From: a virus
DNA: 29,104 nt
Reading direction: 5' to 3' (one strand)
Virus record (IMG/VR): IMGVR_UViG_3300018057_000036
Span: 1 to 29,104 of that record
Within the stretch, counting starts at the first letter, position 1. The number at the start of each line of letters is the position of its first letter. Made by a program: the position numbers and the translations under genes. Below, in pieces: positions 12,143 to 22,810 of the stretch. The notes under the pieces were generated by a model that was given only the letters and a program-made list of their open reading frames with translations, had not been told where the DNA came from and did not search any database.

Positions 12143-12439
12143 ATGACCCGCAAAGAGATTGACGCCGCCGCCGCGCGGCTGATCGAAATCCAGGCGAAGC
12201 TGGACGCCGTGAAGCCGCTGTACCGCGAGCTGAGCGAGATCGAGAAGACCCTCCTGCCCCAGGTCTTCGCCGCCCGCGACAATCAGTTGAGAATCTCCGG
12301 CGGCCGCGCGCTCCGCCCCGTCGACCAGTTCGTCGACCAGAACAATCTGCCCGTGAACGAGCAGTGGCTGCACTCCTGCGCCCGCCGCTGGAAGCTCGTC
12401 GTGGGCCCCGCCGGCCGGCGCGCCGCGCGGACCGGGTGA
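12143..12439 (+). CDS. Coiled-coil hypothetical protein, 98 aa
   Basis: 98 residues. The first 45 form a probable long helix or coiled coil (TRKEIDAAAARLIEIQAKLD then YRELSEIEKTLL), followed by a short domain with RALRPVDQFVDQ, NEQWLHSCARRWKLVV and a basic tail. No family recognised. GAGG at 12133-12136 supports ATG 12143. It is the first plus-strand gene after the direction change and precedes the tandem RNA-like elements. Confidence 0.65.
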   Translation: MTRKEIDAAAARLIEIQAKLDAVKPLYRELSEIEKTLLPQVFAARDNQLRISGGRALRPVDQFVDQNNLPVNEQWLHSCARRWKLVVGPAGRRAARTG

Positions 12440-12473: not shown

Positions 12474-12663
12474 CTTACGGCGGGAGATGCAGGCGCAATT
12501 CCTGCCGGGGCGTGCGCAAGCGTGCCCCGTAGCTCAATTCCCGCGAGCCCCGCCTTATGAAACATGCCCTGAGCCGCCGTAGTGGGCGGAAACCTGGTGC
12601 CGGTCCCGGTGGCGCGGGATGCGTCGGTCTCGGCACCTCGCGGACCGGTGGGTGAAGCCGGCC
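12474..12663 (+). ncRNA. Structured RNA-like element, copy 1
   Basis: Non-coding element of about 190 bases, repeated at 12693-12905. Predicted parts in order: hairpin GCAGG/CCTGC (12489-12493 with 12501-12505) with 7-base loop CGCAATT; a 9-pair hairpin capped by a GCAA tetraloop (12507-12528); the conserved stretch GTAGCTCAATTCCCG then GAGCCCC; hairpin CCGCC/GGCGG (12574-12578 with 12585-12589); then GGTGCCG pairing with CGGCACC around an inner CCCG/CGGG hairpin. Comparison with copy 2 shows compensatory changes in two stems. I do not recognise the class. It is flanked by TGACACC repeats. Confidence 0.6.
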
Positions 12664-12692
12664 TCCCCCTTCCCTGACACCTGACACCTTGC

Positions 12693-12905
12693 CTTACGGG
12701 GGGAGATGCGGGTGCAACTCCCGCCGGCGGCGCCGGAAGGCGTACCCGTAGCTCAATTCCCGAGAGCCCCCCGACTTTTTCCACCCCGTCGAAATTGCCC
12801 TGAGCGGCCGTGATGGGCCGAAACCTGGTGCCGGGCCCGGTGGCGCGGGCGACCGCGAAAGCAGGTACCAGTCGGCACCTCGCGGACCGGTGGGTGAAGC
12901 CGGCC
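12693..12905 (+). ncRNA. Structured RNA-like element, copy 2
   Basis: Second copy, 213 bases, the extra length lying in loops. The first hairpin is GCGGG/CCCGC (12708-12712 with 12720-12724), changing the A-T pair of copy 1 to G-C. The later hairpin is CGGCC/GGCCG (12805-12809 with 12816-12820), where C12575-G12588 of copy 1 becomes G12806-C12819. The tetraloop hairpin has GGAA in place of GCAA, still GNRA. The 3' block from CGGCACC through GGTGAAGCCGGCC is almost unchanged. It ends 33 bases before the start codon at 12939, so a leader or regulatory role for the lysis genes is possible. Confidence 0.6.
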
Positions 12906-12938: not shown

Positions 12939-13514
12939 ATGCCCACCCTCCGCCTCGCCGACGTCGACCGCCTGATGCTGCCCGGCGACCTGCTCCTGTA
13001 CCATCAGGACGATTCGCTCCGCGACGTGGCGATCGCCAGGGGCGGCCGCTCGACGTACTGCCACGCCGGGATGCTCGACCGCGATCTGGGCGAGTGGCGG
13101 GTCCTGCAGATGCTCATGTGGCGGGGCGGCCGCTCGACTTCGCTGGCGAAAGAAGTCGCCAAGAACCGAGGGTGCTGGGACTGGTTTTCCACGAACCCCG
13201 GAAACCGCTGGCACGAGTTCAACCGCCTGGGCGCCGTGAAGTGGATGCGGCACTATGTCAACCGCGGCTACGGCTGGGGCCACCTGATCGCCGACGGGAT
13301 CCTGCACCTGCCGATCGTGCGGTTCCTGACGCCGGTCAACTGCGACGACGAAACCGAGGACTGGCACCCGCCGTTCTGCAGCGAGGCCGTCTCGGCCGCC
13401 TGCCGCAAGGGCGGCGGCGTCGATCCGGTCCCCCACCTGCCCGACCGGCTCACCGAGCCGGGCGATTTGGCCCGCAGCCTATTCTACGAATACCGCGCGA
13501 CCCTGATGCCATGA
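12939..13514 (+). CDS. Permuted NlpC/P60 (YiiX-like) hydrolase
   Basis: 191 residues. It resembles the circularly permuted papain-fold amidases/peptidases of the YiiX/YaeF group. The opening LMLPGDLLLY is followed by the His box (STYCHAGM, H42), and the Cys box comes near the C terminus (FCSEAVSAAC, C147 with E149), the order expected of the permuted fold. Substrates in this group include peptidoglycan peptides and lipid or amide bonds. No signal peptide is visible. The gene opens a run of small membrane and envelope genes, so a role in lysis or cell-wall passage is the best guess. The start codon follows directly on TGACACCT repeats. The stop overlaps the next start (ATGA). Confidence 0.65.
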   Translation: MPTLRLADVDRLMLPGDLLLYHQDDSLRDVAIARGGRSTYCHAGMLDRDLGEWRVLQMLMWRGGRSTSLAKEVAKNRGCWDWFSTNPGNRWHEFNRLGAVKWMRHYVNRGYGWGHLIADGILHLPIVRFLTPVNCDDETEDWHPPFCSEAVSAACRKGGGVDPVPHLPDRLTEPGDLARSLFYEYRATLMP

Positions 13515-21359: not shown

Positions 21360-22220
21360 ATGAAAGCCGCCCTCGCGATCTGCGTGATCGTCCGCGACGA
21401 GGCCCCGTACCTGGCCGAGTGGATTGAATTCCATCGCCTGGTCGGAGTCGAGCGCTTCTTCCTCTACGACGACCGGTCGGAAGACGACACGCTCGCGATC
21501 GTCCAGCGGCATTCCCGCGGCGACATTACGGTCCACCCCTACGACGAGGCCTGGCACTCCGCCCGCTACAATTCGCCGCAGGCCTGCACCTTCAACGACA
21601 CCCCGCAGGTCTGCGCGTACAACCACTGCGTCCAGAACCACGCCGGCGACGCCCGCTGGTGCGCGTTCATCGACGTCGACGAATACCTTTACCACGAGGA
21701 CCTCGACGACCTCCGCGTCGCCCTGGGCCGCTACGAGCGGCACGTCGGCGTGTTCGTCCCCTGGCTCATCTTCGGGCGCAACGGCCACGCGACGCGGCCG
21801 GCGGGGCTCACGGTCGAGGAATACACCCGCCGCGGGTACCCGGGAGAACCGCTCGGCTACGGCAATCAGGGAAAGCAGATCGCCCGTCTCGATCAGCTCG
21901 CCTTCTGGGGGCCCTTCGGCTCGCACAACGCCGTCTATCACTTCGGCCTGCCGGTGGACTCGTTTGAAGATCCGGTGCCCCGGTTCCACGCCCCGATCGC
22001 GCGGCTGAACGCCTTTCGGCTCAACCACTACTACAACCGCTCGCTGGCCGAGGCCCGCGCCAAGGCCGAGCGCTGCGACCGCAACGCCAAGCCCGGTTTC
22101 CAGCCCGACATGCGGCGGATGGACCTCCACGACCTGAATCACGTCGAGGACCGCGGCATCCTCCGCTTCCTGCCGGCATTGCAGAAGGTGTTAGGTGAGA
22201 GGTGTCAGGTATTAGAATGA
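21360..22220 (+). CDS. GT92-like glycosyltransferase
   Basis: 286 residues. A GT-A fold enzyme of the glycosyltransferase family 92 / Glyco_tranf_2_4 type, expected to transfer a sugar from a nucleotide-sugar. Signature features are the N-terminal VIVRDEAPYLAEWIEFHRLV then GVERFFLYDDRSEDDT, the metal-binding DVD at 105-107 (FIDVDEYL), and the later GPFGSHNAVYHF and RLNHYYNRSLAEA, typical of this family. No signal or membrane segment, so cytoplasmic. The last residues (GERCQVLE) are translated GGTGTCA repeat. The stop overlaps the FkbM start by ATGA, so the two are co-translated. Sitting between prohead protease and capsid gene is unusual and suggests modification of a virion or cell-surface target. 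Confidence 0.85.
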   Translation: MKAALAICVIVRDEAPYLAEWIEFHRLVGVERFFLYDDRSEDDTLAIVQRHSRGDITVHPYDEAWHSARYNSPQACTFNDTPQVCAYNHCVQNHAGDARWCAFIDVDEYLYHEDLDDLRVALGRYERHVGVFVPWLIFGRNGHATRPAGLTVEEYTRRGYPGEPLGYGNQGKQIARLDQLAFWGPFGSHNAVYHFGLPVDSFEDPVPRFHAPIARLNAFRLNHYYNRSLAEARAKAERCDRNAKPGFQPDMRRMDLHDLNHVEDRGILRFLPALQKVLGERCQVLE

Positions 22221-22810
22221 TCGAACGGCAGTGGCTTGAATCGCACTTCGCCGGCCGCGCGGGCCGCTTCCTGGAGATCGGCGCCTTCGACGGGTTCACC
22301 GGCTCGCTGACGTTCGGCCTGATCCAGGCCGATTGGCGAGGCGTCCTGGTCGAACCCGACCCCCGCGCATTTTGCCGGTTGAAATCGCTCTGGGGCAACG
22401 GGACGCCGAACCTCGATCTGGTGAACGCCGCCGTTGCCGCGCGCGGCGGCCTGAGATGGTTCTACCAGGACGTCGGCGCCGCGGGCGACGGCCAGACGAG
22501 CACGCTGGTACCCGAAGTGGCCCAAGGTTTCGCCGAGCGGCGCGGCGCCCGCTACCGGACCCATTGGACGCACGCCGTCTCCGTAGCCGACCTGCTGGCC
22601 TGCTTCGGCACGGACTTCGACCTGGTGGTGATCGACGCCGAGGGTTTGGACTGGGAGATCCTCTCAGCCATGCCCCTGGCCGCGATGTACGGCACGGAGG
22701 TCATCGTCGCCGAGAACCCGGCCGCCGTCGCCGACCTCCTCGCGCCCTGGTACACCGAGGCGCTTCGCACCCCGGACAACCTGATCGCCGTGCGACGGTC
22801 CGACACCTGA
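22217..22810 (+). CDS. FkbM-family SAM-dependent methyltransferase
   Basis: 197 residues. The Rossmann-like motif I is FLEIGAFDGFTGS (about 19-31), followed by WRGVLVEPDPRAF (motif II acid) and FDLVVIDAEGLDWEIL (about 137-152), a segment characteristic of the FkbM family. FkbM enzymes O-methylate hydroxyls, frequently on sugars. Translation starts within the stop of the GT92 gene (ATGA), which argues that the methyl acceptor is the sugar or product made by that glycosyltransferase. No membrane segment. Confidence 0.85.
   Translation: MIERQWLESHFAGRAGRFLEIGAFDGFTGSLTFGLIQADWRGVLVEPDPRAFCRLKSLWGNGTPNLDLVNAAVAARGGLRWFYQDVGAAGDGQTSTLVPEVAQGFAERRGARYRTHWTHAVSVADLLACFGTDFDLVVIDAEGLDWEILSAMPLAAMYGTEVIVAENPAAVADLLAPWYTEALRTPDNLIAVRRSDT

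Follow-up and report, generated by a model that had tools for sequence, protein, structure and literature searches.

The window analyzed here, a 29,104-nt stretch of the IMG/VR virus record IMGVR_UViG_3300018057_000036, carries two tandem copies of a structured RNA element on its + strand (12474-12663 and 12693-12905, 75-80% mutual identity), the 5' part of which folds as a circularly permuted tRNA-like domain of the YrlA type. Bacterial Y RNAs are known as tethers that link Ro60 to other proteins. The element of the window is, on balance, best read as a stand-alone mimic of the tRNA elbow that works independently of Ro60, most likely as a decoy for a tRNA-binding host protein. It fills the gap between two genes of the same strand, which encode proteins of 98 and 191 amino acids.

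Structure of the element

The initial annotation, made from the sequence alone, had placed the two copies at these positions and read them as a structured RNA with compensatory changes, and the reading holds: the copies differ by true double-sided swaps. A12491-T12503 of copy 1, the third pair of the T-stem, is replaced in copy 2 by G12710-C12722, and C12575-G12588 by G12806-C12819; both changes had been quoted correctly, as had the change of the acceptor-hairpin loop from GCAA to GGAA. An additional compensatory change, from T12604-A12619 to G12835-C12850, had been missed. Coordinates of all features are given in Table 1.

The first 76 nt or so of each copy correspond to a tRNA that is cut open in the anticodon loop and sealed at the acceptor, with the parts in the order anticodon-like stem, variable AGAT (4 nt), T-arm (7-nt loop), acceptor hairpin (GNRA loop), TA, D-arm and anticodon-like stem. 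The 'reversed order' of the T-like and D-like arms, remarked upon previously, is that of the circularly permuted bacterial Y RNAs. The tRNA-like domain of copy 1 folds with z = -3.1 relative to shuffles. The single-sequence minimum free energy (MFE) structure of copy 2 is a different one, so that its tRNA-like form is proposed from comparison.

The 3' domain (about 105 nt) is kept in both copies. In a two-sequence consensus fold it has two double-compensated pairs and none that is broken, and outside two hairpin loops its sole four substitutions are those of the two compensated pairs. It possibly provides stability or a second binding site. An exact-pattern search with its conserved 24-base pattern gave no match elsewhere in the viral collection.

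Table 1. Features of the element and its flanking genes in the window
Feature	Coordinates	Strand	Remarks
Upstream gene, 98-aa protein	12143..12439	+	homologue adjoins element in L009, 27% identity
Copy 1 tRNA-like domain	12479..12554	+	MFE fold, Rfam YrlA best match, covarying pairs
Copy 1 anticodon-like stem	12479-12484 with 12549-12554	+	
Copy 1 variable AGAT	12485-12488	+	
Copy 1 T-arm	12489-12505	+	loop CGCAATT
Copy 1 acceptor hairpin	12506-12529	+	loop GCAA
Copy 1 TA linker	12530-12531	+	
Copy 1 D-arm	12532-12548	+	loop AATTCCCGC
Copy 1 3' domain	12574..12663	+	two-sequence consensus fold
Copy 1 3' hairpin	12574-12578 with 12585-12589	+	
Copy 1 long stem	12596-12603 with 12630-12637	+	encloses hairpin 12604-12608/12615-12619
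Copy 1 last hairpin	12642-12649 with 12657-12663	+	
Copy 2 tRNA-like domain	12698..12773	+	fold rests on comparison
Copy 2 anticodon-like stem	12698-12703 with 12768-12772	+	
Copy 2 AGAT	12704-12707	+	
Copy 2 T-arm	12708-12724	+	loop TGCAACT
Copy 2 acceptor hairpin	12725-12748	+	loop GGAA, two central mismatches C-C, G-A
Copy 2 D-arm	12751-12767	+	loop AATTCCCGA
Copy 2 3' domain	12805..12905	+	two-sequence consensus fold
Copy 2 3' hairpin	12805-12809 with 12816-12820	+	
Copy 2 long stem	12827-12834 with 12872-12879	+	contains hairpin 12835-12839/12846-12850
Copy 2 last hairpin	12884-12891 with 12899-12905	+	
Downstream gene, 191-aa protein	12939..13514	+	homologue in L009, 42% identity

Protein coding was rejected for the element: indels of 11 nt between the window copies and of 7 nt relative to a related phage contig (L009, described below) break all frames, and a conserved reading frame is thereby excluded. 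As for the adjacent genes, the 98-aa protein matched the Pfam family BDI_1685-like_C below the cut-off only, and the 191-aa protein gave a weak match to phrog_1128.

Each copy had also been described as bounded by TGACACC repeats. The repeats are present, but they are a generic phage intergenic spacer rather than an element-specific marker, with TGACACC occurring at more than 12 other places in the window. Spacer repeats of the ACCTGACACC type are found, in either orientation, in many intergenic gaps of the window (e.g., 215-236, 663-694, 1868-1893 and 22184-22210); the spacers of L009 have GATTAGGG/GATTGGGG in their place.

Classification

At the curated (gathering) thresholds of Rfam, the window yielded no match. 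Under permissive settings, YrlA (RF02553) was the best match for copy 1 with 25.6 bits, and the copy 2 domain scored 21.5 bits, the cut-off being 69. This cut-off is also failed by relatives from Chloroflexota (31-44 bits) and by all 20 scanned phage loci, none of which gave a YrlA match, and it therefore does not discriminate.

YrlA has the architecture of a circularly permuted tRNA (PDB 6CU1; PMC11472068); Rsr, a relative of Ro60, binds the stem that its 5' and 3' ends form together, and its tRNA-like domain binds PNPase (PMC8394870). The window elements resemble it in having a circularly permuted domain with the same arm order and a similar T-arm, capped acceptor and GTAGCTCA D-arm, but differ from it in the apparent lack of the Ro60 basal stem and of a phage Ro60 gene, in the G that takes the place of U55 in the T-loop, and in the extra 3' domain. 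The 5' domain almost certainly belongs to the YrlA-type permuted tRNA-like structural class. The element as a whole is kept apart from the Y RNA family, since a test for the basal stem was negative. The initial annotation had assigned it to no known class, which still applies to the 3' domain of about 105 nt, for which no outside relative was found, but no longer to the 5' half.

Among other known systems, the tymovirus tRNA-like structure (RF00233) is weakly matched owing to the T-loop UGCAACU of copy 2 (24.2 bits, cut-off 40). The window element has no pseudoknotted acceptor and is not 3'-terminal, and the tymovirus permutation is non-circular (PMC11472068); a tymovirus-like identity was discarded as a weak chance match, confined to copy 2 and below the cut-off. 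Permuted tRNA genes likewise have the T-arm ahead of the D-arm, whereas the window element lacks CCA, joins its acceptor strands by a short loop (GCAA and GGAA in the window copies, also a short loop in L009) and has no conserved anticodon loop. A true permuted tRNA gene was rejected in view of the missing CCA, the lack of an ARAGORN call and the absence of an anticodon-loop sequence shared by all three phage copies. An ordinary tRNA or tmRNA was found in the window neither by ARAGORN nor by Rfam at gathering thresholds.

Relatives and covariation

Pattern scans covering 2.9 million viral contigs returned a second record of the same phage (L010, at 99.97% identity) and, as the one close relative of independent origin, the 40.9-kb phage contig L009. 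The latter carries the bare domain of about 67 nt only, which is 80-82% identical to the window domains over 68-74 nt (E about 1e-11) and so exceeds the identity of the neighboring proteins (42%, and 27% for the small protein); the two phages also have a methylase region in common. A search with the neighbor proteins recovered the window phage and the L009 phage only, and no homologue emerged when named phages and plasmids were searched with BLASTN. For GGCACCTCGCGGACCGGTG, 15 of 16 genome matches had about 20-47 nt in common and were taken as chance, and L011 is the same phage. Many loci from one viral pattern scan were set aside as ordinary tandem tRNAs.

Compensatory changes, both from copy to copy and relative to L009, and an identity above that of the flanking genes across a large divergence make it very improbable that the element is a captured host Y RNA, duplicated, now decaying and functionless, as the loss of the basal stem and the two mismatches in the copy 2 acceptor stem might otherwise suggest.

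A covariance model built from four domains (R1) matched 24 of 301 Chloroflexota genomes at E <= 0.001, one of these being the metagenome-assembled genome (MAG) that holds the phage. A few of the weaker R1 matches belong to tRNA arrays, where ARAGORN placed three of the 20 fetched Chloroflexota loci; several of the remaining loci are tandem pairs, and several reach the 31-44 bits for YrlA given above. In an alignment of 16 domains 95.3% of cells are paired, as against 69.8% after shuffling and 37-49% in slid controls, and double-sided changes occur at 16 of 19 pairs, both counts being inflated because the alignment was fitted to the structure. Relative to a sequence-only model from the same alignment, structure adds about 15-27 bits for unseen relatives (L047: 45.3 bits with structure, 19.8 without), which lends further support to the structure. 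The structure of the domain is strongly supported; its function, discussed below, we infer.

Two further viral scans yielded many permuted tRNA-like domains. A TROVE match was present in 19 of 30 such viral records (18 above the curated cut-off) and missing in 11, and R1 places the domain mostly within about 2.5 kb of the TROVE gene in most of the TROVE-bearing records. The window phage resembles these phage Ro60-Y RNA modules in its permuted tRNA-like domain, often in tandem in the modules as well, but has neither the TROVE gene seen in most of the records nor the basal stem seen in many. Phage-borne permuted tRNA-like domains with Ro60 are thus common in viral contigs and are under-annotated at the Rfam YrlA cut-off. 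A passage in PMC12282133, citing Chen et al. 2014, notes Y RNAs in mycobacteriophages.

In the IMG/VR phages surveyed (loci L091-L171, records G309-G338), such YrlA-like domains are frequent, often as two RNAs in tandem. In a 78.5-kb phage contig in which no TROVE gene was found, a pair of Y-RNA-like domains lies at L029:3610-3860 (- strand), again in tandem; one of the two has a basal stem and a TTTAAACGTGG motif in common with Chloroflexota Y RNAs.

Absence of the Ro60 tether

No significant flank-to-flank basal duplex was found for the window copies or L009 (z -0.5 to +1.7), while one domain each of L029, L051, L052, L054 and L056, taken with flanks of 30 and 50 nt, has a significant one (z about -2.5 to -5.0). 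Copy 1 could form a closing helix, two pairs of which are disrupted in copy 2 by uncompensated changes. A TROVE search at E <= 1 in five records (the window, L009, L010, L029 and the MAG with the whole phage) gave no match, a result that is not defining alone, given the 11 of 30 similar phage records mentioned above. We have good confidence that the window elements are without a Ro-binding stem; the stemless form is certain in two independent phage lineages only.

The element could instead be a true Y RNA that uses the Ro60 of its host, with the 3' domain (GAAACCTGGTGCC) as a degenerate Ro-binding strand. In the Rfam alignment AAACCTGGTGCC does fall on the 3' strand of the basal stem of YrlA, and Ro-type phages and Chloroflexota commonly have Y RNAs in tandem; but GGTGCCGG pairs instead with the downstream TCGGCACC in both copies, L009 has no such strand, the basal duplex is not significant, and the MAG holding the phage, a putative host only, has no TROVE gene. 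This makes the use of a host Ro60 improbable.

Putative elbow contact

Relatives with T55 in the T-loop (mostly TTCGAAT) have GG in the D-loop in 34 of 34 cases, those with G55 (including the window copies and L009) in one of nine. The association (Fisher p about 6e-8, or 2e-6 without the window copies) comes from a test that ignores shared ancestry and from T-loop types that were fixed by the search patterns. In the window D-loop AATTCCCG, C-G would occupy positions 18-19 and could pair with G55-C56, which is suggestive of a rewired tertiary elbow contact with 18-55 changed from G-U to C-G. A role as a TruB substrate is unlikely, because G replaces U55.

Proposed function

Each copy would give rise to a small non-coding RNA, either free or cut from the late-gene transcript, whose 5' domain would mimic tRNA in circularly permuted form and descend from the corresponding domain of bacterial Y RNAs (YrlA type). 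Since a small loop closes the acceptor stem, such an RNA would have no CCA end and could not be charged, and since the molecule opens at the 'anticodon' stem, it would have no anticodon; the surface that it still presents would be the tRNA elbow, predicted to be formed by the T-arm and D-arm. Whether by loss or by original absence, the phage apparently has neither the basal stem that binds Ro60 nor Ro60 itself, without which the usual Ro-Y RNA tether would be impossible. A tRNA-like domain that has no tether, in a phage that has no Ro60, suggests a function of the domain itself. Such an independent function has been proposed, not tested (PMC7790460), and the same source proposes the tRNA-like domain of YrlA as a competitive inhibitor of a tRNA-cleaving anticodon nuclease. 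In the case of pseudo-ToxI, phage-encoded RNA mimics disarm a host suicide system (PMC3475682). The RNA of the window may occupy an elbow-recognising host protein, such as a defence nuclease that cleaves tRNA, PNPase or a modifying enzyme, with two copies raising the dose. The decoy role itself is put forward tentatively. The narrower version, in which the mimic module of a Ro60-Y RNA system, with rewired elbow and fused domain, would serve on its own as a decoy that counters, in trans, a host defence aimed at tRNAs, is doubtful. In the searchable literature we found no account of a tandem form that lacks both the stem and Ro60 and carries a second, fused domain.

An element that is never a separate RNA would also fit parts of the evidence: as a cis-acting element of the late mRNA, the intergenic fold might mark processing (e.g., by tRNA-processing enzymes) or block decay. 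Both phages have the element in a gap flanked by genes of one strand, and in L009 it again adjoins the small gene, with the downstream gene close by; no promoter-like or terminator-like site was found near it on the + strand. Its order relative to the small gene is, however, not fixed (upstream in L009, downstream in the window), the closed acceptor lacks the usual cleavage sites of RNase P and RNase Z, and Ro-type phages and Chloroflexota carry the domain within a Y-RNA-like element, the phage copies usually adjoining Ro60. We regard a purely cis-acting role as rather unlikely and retain the stand-alone elbow mimic as the preferred reading.

Phage genome and host

The same phage is present in the MAG UBA12275, deposited as Chloroflexi, in two contigs (G004:C221 and G004:C88) whose sequences join into a circle of about 41.5 kb; the window is therefore a partial phage genome and the IMG/VR record incomplete. 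Tetranucleotide correlations between the phage and other contigs of the MAG are 0.54-0.65, compared with 0.78-0.87 among those contigs, and composition does not tie the phage to the MAG. The TGACACC spacer was discarded as evidence on the host, since the MAG contigs that carry it are those of the phage.

Elsewhere in the window (21360-22810), genes for a glycosyltransferase and an FkbM-type methyltransferase lie between the S49 protease and major capsid genes. In another, 122.6-kb phage contig (L140:5506-6034, - strand), a tmRNA (Rfam, 90 bits) is located amid many tRNA genes, together with a YrlA-like domain.
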